IMG/VR virus record: IMGVR_UViG_3300037840_000333
Location: 1-64,000 of that record
Direction: 5' to 3' (one strand)
Length of the DNA: 64,000 bases
Origin: a virus
How positions within the stretch are numbered: the first letter of the stretch is position 1; every line of letters begins with the position of its first letter. Below, piece after piece: positions 13,256-19,335 of the stretch. A model generated the notes under the pieces. The model made no database searches and was not told where the DNA came from. It saw nothing but the letters and a program-made list of their open reading frames with translations. Both the position numbers and the translations under genes were made by a program.

Positions 13256-13798
13256 TCAGGTCAGCGCCCAATCGAAGTACCCGAGGGCCCGAATCTCCCT
13301 TGCGAGCTGAGCCGTCGGGGCGGTGGCGTCGAGGGTCACGGCGTGGTCGTGCCAATCGTGCGCCAGCTTCAGGAACTTGGTCCGCCGGCCCTTCACCCAC
13401 CCGGGGTTCTGCTGGCTCCCTCGGCGCGCTCGCCGGTCCGCCGCCACGTCGCTCGGGGCGTTGAGGACGACCAGCCGCCACTCGTCGCACCACTCGGTCA
13501 TGGCCTGGAAGAACCTGCCGTTCGCCAGCCGGTCGCCCTCGCCGAACACGAACGGCGTCGGGGCCTGGCTCAGCCAGTCGATAGCCCGGGGCAGCACGCT
13601 CATGCTCAGCCGGTCGGTGCCGGGGTAGTGCGGGTCACTGCCGCCGATCTGTGCCGCCTGGGGCCGCCCGTCGTCGCTGAGGTAGACCGCATGGGCGAAC
13701 GGGGTGTAGCGCCACTCGGGGTCGGTGCCGGCGGTGAGAGCGGCCACGAGGGCGCTCTTGCCCACGCCGGGCTCGCCGATGAAGTAGAGCCCGTTCAC
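13256..13798 (-). CDS. P-loop kinase, probable hydroxymethyl-base DNA kinase, 180 aa
   Basis: The Walker A motif GEPGVGKS is at residues 8-15, with a possible Walker B/LID region around VFGEGDRL (84-91) and Arg-rich catalytic segments at 121-140. Size and features match small P-loop kinases that phosphorylate nucleic-acid components, including phage 5-hydroxymethyl-dU DNA kinases. Its GTG overlaps the stop of the PLP-enzyme gene. As the last gene of the operon with a TET/JBP-like dioxygenase, its likely substrate is the hydroxymethyl group of an oxidised base in DNA. A nucleotide or small-molecule kinase is an alternative. Confidence 0.6.
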   Translation of the reverse strand: MNGLYFIGEPGVGKSALVAALTAGTDPEWRYTPFAHAVYLSDDGRPQAAQIGGSDPHYPGTDRLSMSVLPRAIDWLSQAPTPFVFGEGDRLANGRFFQAMTEWCDEWRLVVLNAPSDVAADRRARRGSQQNPGWVKGRRTKFLKLAHDWHDHAVTLDATAPTAQLAREIRALGYFDWALT

Positions 13799-14739
13799 AG
13801 TTCCGCCATCGCCGCGGCCGTCGGCTCGCTGCCCACGATCCAGAACAGGGCGGTGCCGTCGGGCTCCCACCACCAGTCGAACGTGTCCCGGCGGAGCTGC
13901 ATGTACGTCAGCGCCTTCCCTTCGTAGGTCGGGTGGAACGTGATGCCGTCGAGGGTGAACGGCATCCGGTCCTGGTAGGTGGCGAACTTGGTCGTGTGAA
14001 GGTCATGCCGCTCGATCCGGGGCAGGTCCAGCGTCTCGCCGGTGGCCTTCTCGATCGCACCCAGCCGGTCGGCCGTCCACTGCTCCCGGTTGGGTCCGAC
14101 GCCGATCAGGACCACCCGCTCCAACGCCGGGGGCCGGTGCCGGTGGATCCCGTACAGCACGCTGACGCAACTGTTGCAACTGCCGGCCGTCATCACGAGC
14201 GTCCGCACCGTGGTGCCGGGGACGTTCGCCACCTGGGCCGCGCCGACCGCATGGAACGCCTCGACCTCCTCGGGGCTGGCGGTGTCGGGCGTCGTGATGC
14301 CGTAGTGGAGTCGGTACCAGCCGGCGAACTCGGGGCGCTTCGCCAGCTCGGCCACCGCTCGCTGCAACGCCGGGTTGTAGGCGACCGGGTTGAAGATGAA
14401 CTCGGCGCCGGCCCGGTGGGCGATGGCGACGTTCTCGTGCTTCAGGGCGCTGGCGCCTCGGGTGGCGCCGAGGACGACGACGCACTCCATCCGGTGCTCC
14501 CGGGCCACGAGGGCCGCCATGCTGACCTGGGGGCTGCGCACGCTCGCCCCGGTGAGTATCCCTGGGGCGTCGCCGGCGTAGGTGGTCACCAGGTGCACGA
14601 GCTGGCGCAGCTTGCTCCCGTTGATGCCTCCGTAGCCGAGCGGGGCGGCGTAGTCGTCCCGCTTGTACCAGCGGCCTCCTCGGGACTCGACCGGCGTGAG
14701 GTCGGTGCCTAGCTTCGACCAGGAGATCATTTTCACCAC
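13795..14739 (-). CDS. PLP-dependent enzyme, tryptophan-synthase-beta / D-cysteine-desulfhydrase type, 314 aa
   Basis: Residues 24-47 (WYKRDDYAAPLGYGGINGSK then LRQL) match the fold-type II PLP enzymes; Lys43 should form the Schiff base. A phosphate-binding Gly/Ser segment (TAGSCNSCVSV) follows near residue 190. Relatives act on the beta carbon of amino acids or remove amino groups. GTG 14739 is taken as start; ATG 14730 is possible. The 93-bp gap upstream contains two CTGTGAAG repeats. In this operon it may tailor an amino-acid adduct on a DNA base, as PLP enzymes do in phage thymidine hypermodification, but the substrate is unknown. Confidence 0.7.
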   Translation of the reverse strand: MVKMISWSKLGTDLTPVESRGGRWYKRDDYAAPLGYGGINGSKLRQLVHLVTTYAGDAPGILTGASVRSPQVSMAALVAREHRMECVVVLGATRGASALKHENVAIAHRAGAEFIFNPVAYNPALQRAVAELAKRPEFAGWYRLHYGITTPDTASPEEVEAFHAVGAAQVANVPGTTVRTLVMTAGSCNSCVSVLYGIHRHRPPALERVVLIGVGPNREQWTADRLGAIEKATGETLDLPRIERHDLHTTKFATYQDRMPFTLDGITFHPTYEGKALTYMQLRRDTFDWWWEPDGTALFWIVGSEPTAAAMAEL

Positions 14740-14832
14740 GGCGTACCATCTTCACAGCCCGATTCGCGGCCGTCGGCGGGGCTCGGGCCGGCGTTCTCCA
14801 AGACCACCAGGCTCACCACCGGCCACCAACCT

Positions 14833-15888
14833 TCACAGTCGGCGCGCCGCCGGCGCCTCGCCGGTGTCGATGGCCAGGTTGAACGGGTTGCTGTAGAGCC
14901 TCGGCCACGCCCGGTGCATCATCACCGGGCAGCCGTGCTCCCGGTAGTAGTTCTGCTTCGCCGGCACGCAGCCCGGGTCGTGGGGCACGTCCTCTAGGCG
15001 CAGGTACGGGGGCAGGCACGCCCGCCTGGCCTCCCACAACACATCGAAATCCTCGAGCCGGTGGCGCCGCTCGGCCTTCCGCAGCCGGTCGAACAGCAGG
15101 TCGTTGTAGACGTTCGGGTAGCGCCGGTTCGGCCGGTGCCAGCTCTTGTAGGTGCAGAGGGCGCTCTCCATCGTGAAGTAACCCACGTCCGGGTGGTCGA
15201 TCTTCTCCCGGGCCTCGGCGAGCAGCTTCTCGCCCTCCTCGGTCAGCATGTCGATGGTGTCGTCGTCGTAGCCGGCGAACCCTGGGTTGCTCGGGTGCCA
15301 GTCGAGGTCGTCGCGGCCGAGGACGATGGCGAGCCCGTTGCGGTGGCTGCGGCTGCCCGGTATGTCGTCCATGAACAGCGTGTCGCACTCGACCGGCACG
15401 CCCATGATGGCCAGGTACTCGCTGAAGCTGAACGCGCTGAGCCGGCCGAACGTCGGGATGGCCGTCGCCACGTCCCACACGCCGGAGAATCCGCCCTCGG
15501 CCGCGCCGTGCCACAGGGCTCGCTGGCTCCCAGCTCCACGGACGAGCTCGGCGTAGCCGGCGACCGCCTGGGGCAGCGCCTTGCGATGGTGCCGGCGGTC
15601 GGTGTCGAACTCCAACTCGGGCCGGTGGGCGTCGAACCACTGGCACAGCTCGGCCGCCTGGGCGATGGTCGGGAATCGCCGGTGGAGGATCAGGCTGGTC
15701 GCCGGGTGCTGGGTGTTGCCGTTGAGGAAGGCGAACCACAGCGCCTGCTCCTCGTCCCATCCCAGCCGGTCCCGCAGGTAGGGCATCAGGTAGTACACGG
15801 CGCCCGGGTGGCTCCGGTGGGTCAGGTGGAACTCGTAGAAGTGGAGGAACGTCTGCCGGCGGTGCTCGGGCTGCCGGTAGTCGGTCAC
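14833..15888 (-). CDS. Protein resembling the helical domain of phage 5-hmdU DNA kinases, 351 aa
   Basis: Residues about 15-70 (FHLTHRSHPGAVYYLMPYL, then LWFAFLNGNTQHPATS and LHRRFP) and about 95-115 (EFDTDRRHHRK) resemble a helical domain family found in phages beside or fused to 5-hydroxymethyluracil DNA kinases and pyrophosphorylases. Here it is separate from the P-loop kinase two genes downstream. The C-terminal half has conserved-looking Asp/His/Cys residues. A role in recognising or transferring groups to the modified base is likely by association. GTG 15888 overlaps the dioxygenase stop. The family assignment is from memory of sequence patterns and needs a profile search. Confidence 0.5.
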   Translation of the reverse strand: MTDYRQPEHRRQTFLHFYEFHLTHRSHPGAVYYLMPYLRDRLGWDEEQALWFAFLNGNTQHPATSLILHRRFPTIAQAAELCQWFDAHRPELEFDTDRRHHRKALPQAVAGYAELVRGAGSQRALWHGAAEGGFSGVWDVATAIPTFGRLSAFSFSEYLAIMGVPVECDTLFMDDIPGSRSHRNGLAIVLGRDDLDWHPSNPGFAGYDDDTIDMLTEEGEKLLAEAREKIDHPDVGYFTMESALCTYKSWHRPNRRYPNVYNDLLFDRLRKAERRHRLEDFDVLWEARRACLPPYLRLEDVPHDPGCVPAKQNYYREHGCPVMMHRAWPRLYSNPFNLAIDTGEAPAARRL

Positions 15889-16718
15889 GCCATCAGCCCG
15901 CTCTCACGCTGGCGCTCGATCAGGGTGTCCTCCCGCTCGCTCCGGGTCACCCGGGCCTGCTGCATCTCGGTCTCCACGTCGAGGCACTGCGCCATCCTGG
16001 CCACGGTGTAGTAGACGCCGGTGTAGCGGTAGCCGTCGGGGTCCTTCCGGCGGATCGGCGTCACGCCGTGCAGGGTCTCGTAGGCGGGCATGAACAGAAG
16101 GTCGCCGTCCCGGCAGGCGAGCACCTGGCGGTACTGCGGTATGTGCAGGTGGCCGCCTCGGGTGCCGCGCCGCATCGTGAACATGGCGTTCCACGTGGGC
16201 AAGTTGTTTTGGTCGTAGTGGTAGGGCAGGGGGCTGGTCTCGTTCAGCACGCCGCTGGTCCACTGCGTGCCCCGCATGCGCCACTCGGGCCGGATGATGT
16301 GGGCCCGTTCCTGGTCGATGCGCGCCCGGTCGGGGTGGTGCTCCTCGAATGCCCGGCTGAACTCCCAGGCCATGTCGGTGAGGATGCCGTGGGCTCCGGG
16401 CGCCTCGATGCTCCCGCTGCACTCCCGGCAGCCCTCCCGGCGCAGCACGGCGTTCCGGCTGGCGTAGCCGAACACGTTGGACTTGTTGCGCACGCCGCTG
16501 CTCCGCAAGGTGGTGCTCATCGGGTAGGCGATGCACGCGCCACGGAGCCGTGTCTGCAGGCGCTCGGGTATGTGGAGCACGATGGCGAGCGGCCGGCCGG
16601 TCTCGCTGTCGATCAGCTTCGCCTCGCCCTCGGTGGTCGGCTCCATCTCAGGCACCGTCTCGCGCAGCAGGTGGTGAACCTTGGCCTTCGCCACCTGATC
16701 GCACTCGATCACCTTCAT
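15885..16718 (-). CDS. TET/JBP-like 2-oxoglutarate, Fe(II)-dependent dioxygenase, 277 aa
   Basis: The double-stranded beta-helix core shows the iron-binding HxD at His167-Tyr-Asp169, the distal histidine in ETLHGVTP (His217), and a downstream Arg (231) in YRYTGVYYTV that could bind 2-oxoglutarate. A small, compact core with a GGHLHIPQY strand between the metal ligands fits TET/JBP enzymes, which hydroxylate the methyl group of thymine or 5-methylcytosine in DNA. No cytosine methyltransferase is near, which favours thymine as substrate. The gene overlaps both neighbours by 4 bp. An oxygenase for protein or small molecules cannot be excluded. Confidence 0.62.
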   Translation of the reverse strand: MKVIECDQVAKAKVHHLLRETVPEMEPTTEGEAKLIDSETGRPLAIVLHIPERLQTRLRGACIAYPMSTTLRSSGVRNKSNVFGYASRNAVLRREGCRECSGSIEAPGAHGILTDMAWEFSRAFEEHHPDRARIDQERAHIIRPEWRMRGTQWTSGVLNETSPLPYHYDQNNLPTWNAMFTMRRGTRGGHLHIPQYRQVLACRDGDLLFMPAYETLHGVTPIRRKDPDGYRYTGVYYTVARMAQCLDVETEMQQARVTRSEREDTLIERQRESGLMA

Positions 16719-17371
16719 GCCGCCGGATGCTCCTCGTCGTACTCCCGCAGCATTGCCACAAACAGCTCGGCGTTGCTCGGGGCCTCGTAGTGCCGGCGGG
16801 CTCGGTGGGCCATCGCCGCCACGTAGCCGTACTGGTCGAGCGGGTAGTCGAGGACGAGGCTGCGGACCTGGGTGTTGCGAGCGTTGCCGGCCGCCGGGGC
16901 CGCCGGGGCGCTCTCCTGCAGCTTGGCGTAGAGGTCGTCCACGTCGTCGGGCAGGTAGCCCACGCCGTCGAGCCCTGGGCCGCGCTGCAGCTCCCGTAGC
17001 CCTTCCAACAGGGCCGGCCCATCCCAGCCGGCTATCTCGGTGAGCCGATTGTCCGCCACCAGGTAGGCGTCGGCCTCGGCGTCGTCGGTGCTGGCCCACC
17101 CTCGCACCACGGGCACCTTCCACACGCCGTCCCGGTCGGTCTCGATGCCCTCGGCCGGCGTGGCGCCCGCCTTCATGTCCACCTGCAAGAGCTGGGTCCG
17201 GCCGTGTCCGGCGACCAGCCGGCCGGTCCGCTCGTCGAGGATGGCCGGGACGGTGAAGCCGAAGCGGTCGAAGCTGGCCCGCAGCATGTCGAGGTCGTGC
17301 CTCCTCGGGTTGCGGAGGGCGGGCACGAGCGTGTCGATCCGCATCATTTCCAGCCGGCGCTCCTCGCTCAT
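16715..17371 (-). CDS. ParB-like protein 2, 218 aa
   Basis: Residues 10-65 form a ParB/Srx-type domain (RIDTLVPALRNPRRHDLDML, then DERTGRLVAGHGRTQLL). The remainder parallels the protein encoded just upstream: RGWASTDD, YLVADNRLTEIAGWD and SNAELFVAML all recur. The fold includes CTP-dependent DNA clamps, nucleases and small-molecule kinases. In this operon a DNA-targeting or kinase role is plausible. The gene overlaps its neighbours by 4 bp on both sides. Confidence 0.75.
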   Translation of the reverse strand: MSEERRLEMMRIDTLVPALRNPRRHDLDMLRASFDRFGFTVPAILDERTGRLVAGHGRTQLLQVDMKAGATPAEGIETDRDGVWKVPVVRGWASTDDAEADAYLVADNRLTEIAGWDGPALLEGLRELQRGPGLDGVGYLPDDVDDLYAKLQESAPAAPAAGNARNTQVRSLVLDYPLDQYGYVAAMAHRARRHYEAPSNAELFVAMLREYDEEHPAA

Positions 17372-18084
17372 GCCGGGTGCTTGCTCTCAAACTGGCGCAG
17401 CATGGCGATGAACAGCTCGGCGTTCGTCTCCACGCCGAACGTCTTGCGGGCCCGGGCCGCGGTGGCGATCACGTATTCGTACTCCTCGACCGGGTGGTCG
17501 AAGATGATGCTGCGGAGCTGCTTGTTGCGGTAGTTGTCGGCCCGCTCGCCGTAGCTGTTCTCCGTCTCGCTGGTCGGGTCCGGCTTCGCCGGTTCCAGCA
17601 GCTTCGCCATCGCCGCCGGCGTGAAGCCCGTGCCGGCCAGGCCGAGGTCGCCGGCCTCCAAGGGGGTCAGCATCTCGTGCAGCTCGGGGTTATCCCAGCC
17701 ACCCAGCTCGGTCTGGCGATTGTCGGCGATCAGATAGGCCATCGCCTCCTCGTCGTCCCGGCTGGCCCAGCCCCGGGTGACGGGCACCAGCCACTCGATG
17801 TCGTCGGGGTGCTCGGGGTCGTCGGGTACGAGCGTCCGCACGCCCTCGGGTGGGCTGGCGCCGTCGGCGTGCATCTGCGTCAGCAGCTCGTAGCGGCCGT
17901 GGCCGGCGGCGATCAGCCCGGTGCGCTCGTCAATCAGGATCGGGTTCGTGTACCCGAAGCGGTTGAAGCTCTTGCGCAGCTCGGCCGGTTTGTGGGTCCT
18001 CGGGTTGCGCGGGTGGGGGCGCAGCTCGCCGAGCGGCATGTGGGCGATCCGCCGCCCGGTGAGCGCCGCGCCCTTCCCCCTCAC
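17368..18084 (-). CDS. ParB-like protein 1, 238 aa
   Basis: Residues 16-70 carry the ParB-like domain (LRPHPRNPRTHKPAELRKSF, then DERTGLIAAGHGRYELL) and residues about 125-165 contain RGWASRDDEEAMAYLIADNR. It shares its layout and many motifs with the next gene, so they arose by tandem duplication and diverged. It lacks the HTH needed for a plasmid-partition ParB. GTG 18084 overlaps the upstream stop. It opens the run of overlapping genes that forms the modification operon. Confidence 0.75.
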   Translation of the reverse strand: MRGKGAALTGRRIAHMPLGELRPHPRNPRTHKPAELRKSFNRFGYTNPILIDERTGLIAAGHGRYELLTQMHADGASPPEGVRTLVPDDPEHPDDIEWLVPVTRGWASRDDEEAMAYLIADNRQTELGGWDNPELHEMLTPLEAGDLGLAGTGFTPAAMAKLLEPAKPDPTSETENSYGERADNYRNKQLRSIIFDHPVEEYEYVIATAARARKTFGVETNAELFIAMLRQFESKHPA

Positions 18085-18548
18085 TCGTCCTCGTCCTCCG
18101 CTGGCATCGGCAACTGTGCCTCGCCCCGGGCCGCCCGCTTGGCCGCCTCGGCGTCGCTCCGCGCCTTCTTGACCTTCGCCATGTGCTTCGCCACCATGTC
18201 GGCGCCCAGCTCGGGGTCGATGAACAGGCAGCCGTCCGCTTCCAGCTTCAGCGTCTCGCAGAACTCCTCGATGGGGTAGGCGTCCTTCCCGCTGCCCTCG
18301 GTGATCCGCTTGTAGTTGTGGCCCTTGGCCGTGGCGTACACGAGGACCATCACCCGGCTCTCGACCGGGACGTGGACCGGGGCGATGCCCATGCTCTCGC
18401 TCAGCCCGTCGCCGCACTTGGTCAGGTCGGCGACGGTCATGGTCACCGGCATGCCGTCGTGATCGGGAATCTCCTGGGCCTCCAACTCGCTCGGCGAGGC
18501 GTAATCCTCGAGGACGCTGGTGGCCGCCTGGCTCAGCCGTGGGCTCAT
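18081..18548 (-). CDS. Hypothetical protein, 155 aa
   Basis: ATG 18548 has a strong GCAGGAGGC ribosome binding site in the 29-bp gap after the VRR nuclease gene, so it may begin the transcription unit that includes the ParB and dioxygenase genes. The sequence has an alpha/beta core (ESRVMVLVYATAKGHNYKRI) and a charged helical tail ending in EDEDE. No family recognised; association with DNA modification is by position. Confidence 0.6.
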   Translation of the reverse strand: MSPRLSQAATSVLEDYASPSELEAQEIPDHDGMPVTMTVADLTKCGDGLSESMGIAPVHVPVESRVMVLVYATAKGHNYKRITEGSGKDAYPIEEFCETLKLEADGCLFIDPELGADMVAKHMAKVKKARSDAEAAKRAARGEAQLPMPAEDEDE

Positions 18549-18577: not shown

Positions 18578-18997
18578 TCAGGACGCTAGCAAACGAGGCT
18601 CCCAGCCGAACGTCCTCGGGGCGTGCTCGGGCTGGTGGATCCAGTTGGCGACGTCCTGCCAGTCGTCGGTCGGGCGGAGCACCCACACCCGGGCCGTCGG
18701 AATGGCGGCGAAGCCGGCGAGCCACGTGAGCTGGTCGGGTTCCACCCGGCCCTTGGCGCCCTTGCACTCGATCACCACGAGCCACTGGTCGCGGATGGCG
18801 ACGAGGTCGGGCCAGCCGACGGCCGTGGTGCTGGTCCGCCAGCCGCCTCGGGGCGTCTGCATCCGGTAGACGTGCTGGTACAGGTACCGCTCCGCCTTCA
18901 GCCGGTCCTCGATGGCGGTCTGCCACTGGCGCTCGGTGAGCGGTGCCGGCGTGGAAAAGAGCTGGGCGCTCGCCGGTAGCCGGACGACACGCCTCAT
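18578..18997 (-). CDS. VRR-NUC-type PD-(D/E)xK nuclease, 139 aa
   Basis: The chain shows the VRR-NUC pattern: an N-terminal helix with Glu30, GWPDLVAIRD with Asp64, and IECKG with Glu77 and Lys79, then PDQLTWL with Gln89. This family includes stand-alone phage nucleases that resolve branched DNA such as Holliday junctions or flaps. It overlaps the HNH gene upstream as ATGA. A resolvase role in replication, recombination or packaging is likely. The stop lies within TTTGCTAGCGT, a possible promoter for the next gene. Confidence 0.75.
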   Translation of the reverse strand: MRRVVRLPASAQLFSTPAPLTERQWQTAIEDRLKAERYLYQHVYRMQTPRGGWRTSTTAVGWPDLVAIRDQWLVVIECKGAKGRVEPDQLTWLAGFAAIPTARVWVLRPTDDWQDVANWIHQPEHAPRTFGWEPRLLAS

Positions 18998-19335
18998 CGC
19001 TGCGCAAGCCCGAGGGCGTCGGCTTCCTTCGGGTGGTCCTCCACCCAATCGTTGTGGAAGGGGCAGGCGGTGATCCCGTTGTCCTCGGTGTACTGGCCGC
19101 CGTCGTGAGGCTTCCGCAGGTGGTGGTAAGTCAGCTCGCCGGGTGGGAAGCAGCTCGTGTCGGGGAGGAACGGGGCGATGCGGCAGCAGTGGCCGTCCCG
19201 GGCGAACACCGCCTCCCGCACGAGGTCCCGCTCAGGCTTCTCGTCCCGGCGCTTGTCGCTCACCCGCTTCAGCCCTCGGCGCCGGCGCTTCTCCCGCTTC
19301 GGGGGTTTGGGGATCGGGGTGACCTCGGGGCTCAT
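18994..19335 (-). CDS. HNH endonuclease, 113 aa
   Basis: A basic N-terminus precedes an HNH core: TYHHLRKPHDGG with His71-His72, NGITACPFHNDW with Asn86 and His94, and cysteines at 50-51, 62 and 91 that could bind zinc. Free-standing HNH proteins in phages act as nicking or homing enzymes or assist packaging. ATG 19335 overlaps the stop of the 49-aa gene. It is next to the VRR nuclease, so both may serve in DNA processing. Confidence 0.75.
   Translation of the reverse strand: MSPEVTPIPKPPKREKRRRRGLKRVSDKRRDEKPERDLVREAVFARDGHCCRIAPFLPDTSCFPPGELTYHHLRKPHDGGQYTEDNGITACPFHNDWVEDHPKEADALGLAQR

Follow-up and report, generated by a model that had tools for sequence, protein, structure and literature searches.

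An operon of six genes on the minus strand of an IMG/VR virus record, at positions 13256–18084, is proposed to encode a post-replicative pathway of thymine hypermodification with a TET-family dioxygenase as its front end; the probability of this reading is put at roughly 0.7. The window analyzed here consists of the first 64,000 bases of this 87,120-base record (G000). In order of transcription, the operon encodes two ParB/Srx-like proteins (ParB-A and ParB-B), a TET/JBP dioxygenase, an amino acid:DNA transferase, a fold-type II pyridoxal phosphate (PLP) enzyme, and a P-loop kinase. According to the proposed mechanism, the ParB-like proteins would engage phage DNA and assist the dioxygenase, which would hydroxylate thymine in DNA at its 5-methyl group, giving 5-hydroxymethyl-2′-deoxyuridine (5-hydroxymethyl-dU). 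The comparative evidence for this hydroxylation is strong, and in M6 and ViI phages a dUMP hydroxymethylase does the same job before replication. The kinase, a member of PF18751, would by homology phosphorylate the hydroxymethyl group, yielding 5-phosphomethyl-dU. Judging by its fold and family, the ViI-type transferase would then exchange the phosphate for an amino acid, most likely an O-linked serine, and the ViI-type PLP enzyme would decarboxylate it, leaving most likely 5-(2-aminoethoxy)methyl-dU (5-NeOmdU) or another serine-derived thymine. By analogy, such a product would most likely shield the DNA from host nucleases.

Two front ends for one back end

The substrate of the first step was approached by comparing related loci. 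Alignment-based searches of IMG/VR gave 258 relatives of the TET enzyme, 229 of the PLP enzyme, and 135 of the transferase, from each of which 80 loci were kept; a single TET sequence used as query gave no related loci, whereas the alignment did. Among 36 non-redundant transferase loci with full flanks, 23 contain a TET gene, 10 contain a thymidylate synthase (TS) homologue together with HMUDK_hel, three contain neither, and none contains both. The exclusion between TET and TS is significant (Fisher p = 1.1e-6, an optimistic value since the sequences are related). A Pfam scan of 50 long whole contigs found TS in 11, all of them TET-negative, and in none of the 34 TET-positive ones. On a quick transferase tree, in which the Ackermannviridae branch is very long and its placement unsure, at least seven changes between TET and TS are needed, at least three of them forced by the starred branches for the TS group; the swap was therefore not a single event. 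The transferase linked to TS at locus L211 is 58% identical to that of the window. The TS partners have an asparagine at the site that determines selection of dUMP rather than dCMP (rule from PMC8670742), and the shared back end should therefore work on a base of the uracil/thymine type. In the TS reading frame of L236 (701 aa), the catalytic motif is adjoined by an insert whose ends resemble those of an intein (CLAGDTS ... VLAHNC).

No match to the TS homologue family (PF00303) or to C5-methyltransferases (PF00145) was found in the 87-kb record, and C5-methyltransferases were absent from all 11 records tested, which include G000 and eight named actinophages of the family. Among long contigs, C5-methyltransferase matches occur in one of 34 with TET and transferase (L208) and in three of 11 with TS. 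The exclusion of TS by TET, the repeated switches, and the near absence of C5-methyltransferases together argue that TET makes 5-hydroxymethyl-dU from thymine and replaces the hydroxymethylase, so that the base would be oxidized and then phosphorylated in DNA, as the first-pass annotation had suggested. Thymine in DNA is thus strongly indicated as the predicted TET substrate.

The ParB-like proteins follow the front end. They are present at 118 of 131 TET loci and at none of 17 TS loci (loci of at least 9 kb, counted without de-duplication), which supports ParB as part of the TET step, as a partner of the oxygenase. Of the two roles first suggested for the pair, targeting of the reaction or kinase activity, nothing points to the second, as the operon has a dedicated P-loop kinase. 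Both ParB-A (17368–18084, 238 aa) and ParB-B (16715–17371, 218 aa, with a 4-bp overlap on each side) are encoded on the minus strand and match phrog_620 (1.9e-33 and 2.8e-27, respectively), in agreement with their initial assignment to ParB/Srx; they are 47% identical to each other.

The back ends that accompany TET are more varied. Local profile scans found transferase A with or without the PLP enzyme, transferase B with a flavin oxidase, glycosyltransferases, or the kinase only. Of 85 non-redundant transferase A sequences (<92% identity), 44 adjoin both TET and PLP genes. The closest relative of the operon, on the 84.7-kb contig L223, has the same gene order and two ParB genes; identity is 65% for the transferase and 60% for the PLP enzyme, and 33% for TET and 37% for the kinase; the back end has thus been conserved better than the front end. 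When back ends are mapped on the TET tree, which is limited by long branches, at least 21 changes are required, and the TET sequence is therefore not predictive of the back end.

Several other combinations were observed in the same survey. Twenty-five contigs with TET and glycosyltransferase genes (among L032–L106) lack a C5-methyltransferase, and for this reason they may make a glycosylated hydroxymethyluracil, which would be a counterpart of base J in phages. TET also occurs with a second transferase branch nearer to M6 gp51, a flavin (DAO) oxidase, and a kinase, in L009:5932–9129 (MO526) and L010:1–3273 (Kozie) as well as in L028, L031, L076, L087, L093, and L099; in these loci, TET may feed a version of the glycine route by which PaMx11 makes aminomethyl-dU. 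In Arthrobacter phage Altadena (L011:5971–8260) and in L103, the genes after TET encode a glycosyltransferase and a glucosaminyl deacetylase, a set that suggests an amino-sugar modified base.

The enzymes of the operon

The dioxygenase (15885–16718, minus strand, 277 aa) is a TET/JBP-family 2-oxoglutarate (2OG)-Fe(II) enzyme and a predicted thymine 5-methyl hydroxylase. Its match to the Pfam family Tet_JBP is weak (0.006). The AF2 model (pLDDT 93.6) was more informative: in a fold search of the PDB, the top 26 matches were CcTet, TET2, NgTet1, and CMD1, with E-values down to 1e-12, followed by FTO and AlkB. The double-stranded beta-helix fold of the model is thus confirmed as closest to TET enzymes, which bears out the initial TET/JBP assignment. 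The iron ligands H167-x-D169 and H217 and the 2OG-binding R231 are invariant in 39 relatives, and oxidation of a pyrimidine 5-methyl group in DNA is predicted. Gp2 of mycobacteriophage Cooper has been treated as a phage TET/JBP protein (PMC12730594), and the window dioxygenase is homologous to the gene 2 products of other Coopervirus phages. Relatives of the enzyme are labelled “queuine tRNA-ribosyltransferase” or “DpdA-like” in database records and in PHROG 6059 (Nigel, JAMaL, and Acadian gene 2), a label that looks wrong because the modelled fold is that of TET.

The gene at 14833–15888 (minus strand, 351 aa) had been described as a helical kinase-domain protein, the only one of six protein identities that did not hold. 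It matches PF18724 (1.5e-18; 67.8 bits against a curated cut-off of 26.2), a family of amino acid:DNA transferases, and is itself of ViI type. HMUDK_hel (PF18723), the helical domain of the 5-hydroxymethyl-dU kinase, has no match anywhere in the 87-kb record, although ViI and Gloob were positive in the same search, and the kinase assignment was rejected. The transferase model is all-helical (pLDDT 95.2), which may explain the mistake. Its best PDB fold is the 5-phosphomethyl-dU (5-PmdU) glycinyltransferase of phage PaMx11 (8z2m/8z2n; TM 0.53–0.65, probability 1.0), and a 30-member profile matches 25qc (7.7e-12) and 8z2m (1.2e-5) by sequence. By BLAST, the ViI homologue is found with an E-value of 2.5e-24 and 27% identity, and M6 gp51 with 1.2. 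Its predicted role is to attach an amino acid, which is probably serine, to 5-phosphomethyl-dU within DNA.

The fold-type II PLP enzyme (13795–14739, minus strand, 314 aa) fits its first description; it matches phrog_3650 (1.2e-77), and its profile resembles ACC deaminase and D-cysteine desulfhydrase in the PDB. The PLP lysine K43 (GSKLR) is invariant. The ViI homologue is matched at 4e-59 with 36% identity, whereas M6 gp52 is not significant. By sequence, therefore, both back-end enzymes are of ViI rather than M6 type, and by analogy the PLP enzyme is predicted to decarboxylate the installed amino acid. No radical S-adenosylmethionine (SAM) gene, which belongs to the M6 route, was found in the record or in 14 relatives. 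These grounds, namely the missing BLAST matches to the M6 transferase and PLP enzyme and the absent radical SAM gene, led to rejection of the M6 route (glycine, radical SAM, 5-NedU). The steps of the ViI enzymes are reportedly phosphorylation by a kinase, serine transfer, and decarboxylation (work of Lee in 2018 and 2022), and this is the basis of the last two steps of the scheme; serine transfer and decarboxylation to 5-NeOmdU are, by this analogy, proposed with moderate confidence.

The P-loop kinase (13256–13798, minus strand) most likely starts at GTG 13798, giving 180 aa; a longer reading frame of 205 aa begins at 13873. In line with the first description, it matches PF18751 (6.8e-26), and it keeps the Walker A motif GEPGVGKS, D87, and an invariant GxD. 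The protein itself does not match PF18748, the family under which Pfam annotates M6 gp54 as a 5-hydroxymethyl-dU DNA kinase; a comparison of 106 PF18751 relatives with the profile that includes M6 gp54 gave an HHalign probability of 98%. A PF18751 kinase is present in all 23 full-flank TET loci. Phosphorylation of 5-hydroxymethyl-dU in DNA is thus a moderately supported prediction. Kinases of PF18751 and PF18748 are annotated as “terminase small subunit” in phrog_800 and GenBank, as seen for the window gene, L013:1786–2382 (Nigel_3), and L108:16686–17249 (M6 gp054).

The layout is exactly as first described: 4-bp overlaps join ParB-A/ParB-B, ParB-B/TET, TET/transferase, and PLP/kinase, and the sole junction without one is a 93-bp gap between the transferase and PLP genes (14740–14832, minus strand). 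All six genes are complete, with no internal stops and a third-position GC content of 0.93–0.95. The arrangement is not due to chance, because the gene set and order recur in unrelated virus contigs at 23–65% protein identity. Upstream, an open frame on the minus strand (18081–18509, at most 142 aa, with no start codon at its 18509 end) shares 4 bp with ParB-A and is possibly co-transcribed; Pfam and PHROG searches gave no match for it. Directly upstream of the operon, at 18578–19335, are genes for a VRR-NUC/Hjc-like nuclease and an HNH endonuclease, and L223 likewise has a VRR-like match near its operon. The window also includes genes for terminase, portal, major head protein, tail, and lysis. 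The record has 70% GC and no detected end repeats, and it is possibly incomplete; no signal of base modification was apparent from its overall base composition or dinucleotides. The host is likely an actinobacterium, since the named phages with the closest operon-gene homologues have hosts in Mycobacterium, Gordonia, Rhodococcus, and Microbacterium, and since genome collections gave just two transferase matches, both of them contigs of Actinomycetota metagenome-assembled genomes.

Alternative readings

The base on which TET acts is the first debatable issue. It might be 5-methylcytosine (5mC), with the kinase, transferase, and PLP enzyme decorating 5-hydroxymethylcytosine. The TET family is known mainly for 5mC, and phage TETs characterized together with glycosyltransferases reportedly act on this base (Burke 2021, via PMC12730594). 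A C5-methyltransferase match is also present in two TET and transferase contigs, L208 and, weak and partial, L068. Against this route stand the absence of such a gene from G000 and the eight named actinophages, its lower frequency in TET than in TS contigs, and the pairing of the same transferase and PLP enzyme with dUMP-type hydroxymethylases. In addition, after the 2OG-binding arginine TET2 and NgTet1 share a base-contacting histidine; the corresponding residue is V239 here and L, K, V, or M in relatives. Taken together, the cytosine route is considered improbable. A target other than DNA (tRNA, protein, or free nucleotides) is far less probable still. RefSeq and PHROG do call relatives of the dioxygenase “queuine tRNA-ribosyltransferase”, but its model matches TETs, with AlkB and FTO next and no transglycosylase among the 50 matches listed, the transferase matches a DNA-base transferase, and the gene partners are typical of DNA hypermodification clusters.

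The second issue is the end product. With the proposed front end retained, another amino acid might be installed, or the PLP enzyme might catalyze elimination, racemization, or transamination, as its fold type and its ACC deaminase/D-cysteine desulfhydrase-like profile would allow. Identity to the ViI enzymes is only 27% for the transferase and 36% for the PLP enzyme, and at 12 of 56 non-redundant TET and transferase loci no PLP gene was seen in the stretch examined, so the product of the transferase may suffice by itself. On the other hand, it is with ViI-like phages specifically that the transferase and PLP enzyme are shared; these phages make 5-NeOmdU. In addition, radical SAM genes were not seen. 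A different end product is regarded as a possibility, though an unlikely one. Some points weigh against the thymine pathway with its TET front end and serine-derived product. The asparagine in the H-x-D-x-x-N motif is compatible with both bases; L208 and L068 have their C5-methyltransferase matches; and a TS or methyltransferase gene could lie beyond the possibly incomplete G000. The predicted phosphorylation rests on distant homology, with the HMUDK helical partner absent, and serine is proposed, at moderate strength, from ViI kinship at the low transferase identity given above. No nucleoside measurement for any phage of the operon group was found in the literature.

Relation to known systems and significance

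Salmonella phage ViI (FQ312032) has a homologous transferase and PLP enzyme, with a kinase acting before the transferase, and its DNA contains 5-NeOmdU (PMC11721090), which makes up about 43% of the bases derived from T (PMC6449724). However, ViI has a TS homologue and HMUDK with the helical domain, whereas the window phage has TET, a PF18751 kinase, and ParB, and neither TS nor HMUDK_hel; lacking a TS homologue in its record, the operon works like the ViI pathway but is not that pathway. The 5-NedU cluster of Pseudomonas phage M6 (gp51–gp58) and the PaMx11 glycinyltransferase (8z2m) share the transferase fold, a PALP-fold enzyme, and a P-loop kinase homologue; they differ in a glycine-type transferase, radical SAM, HMUDK_hel, and TS. 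In the phage systems of TET, C5-methyltransferase, and glycosyltransferase (Burke 2021), a TET-family oxygenase likewise starts hypermodification; in the window operon no C5-methyltransferase was found, and the back end is a kinase, transferase, and PLP enzyme.

Related systems also occur in actinophages. In Rhodococcus phage Tonitrus and Gordonia phage LittleMunchkin, ParB, TET, a PF18724 transferase, and a PF18751 kinase are clustered, but the transferase belongs to the other branch, nearer to M6 gp51, and an unknown last gene replaces the PLP enzyme. Genes 1–4 of Mycobacterium phages Hangman, JAMaL, and Fortunato (Coopervirus) encode ParB, TET, a transferase 49% identical to that of the window, and a kinase; there is one ParB and no PLP enzyme, so the attached amino acid would not be processed further. 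The first-pass annotation held that the combination may be undescribed. This is too broad for the ParB-TET-transferase-kinase set, which was already called thymidine hypermodification in Tonitrus (PMC11955845); the PLP branch was not found in the literature searched. More precisely, TET with ViI-type transferase and PLP enzyme, its recurrence, and the quantified swap are undescribed in that literature, which did not extend to Iyer 2013, Lee 2018 and 2022, and Burke 2021. The novelty here thus lies in the branch with the PLP enzyme and in the statistics that support swapping of front ends. A TET/JBP-based modification with amino acids had reportedly been predicted for phages by Iyer et al. in 2013.

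We also find it rather probable that a widespread phage lineage makes amino-acid-derived hypermodified thymine wholly after replication, by means of a ParB-assisted TET whose product enters the kinase, transferase, and decarboxylase chemistry that ViI-like phages supply from a pool of hydroxymethylated nucleotides, and that the two front ends replaced each other repeatedly. If this is true, thymine would be converted in place by TET and then decorated with an amino acid, and the phage would need neither a modified nucleotide pool nor a polymerase tolerating one. The first step of base J synthesis in eukaryotes would have a phage counterpart in this system. The system would also be a source of TET enzymes acting on T without a methyltransferase, and any DNA could be given amine handles on T. 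The proposal offers a testable account of why ParB-TET genes open so many actinophage genomes.

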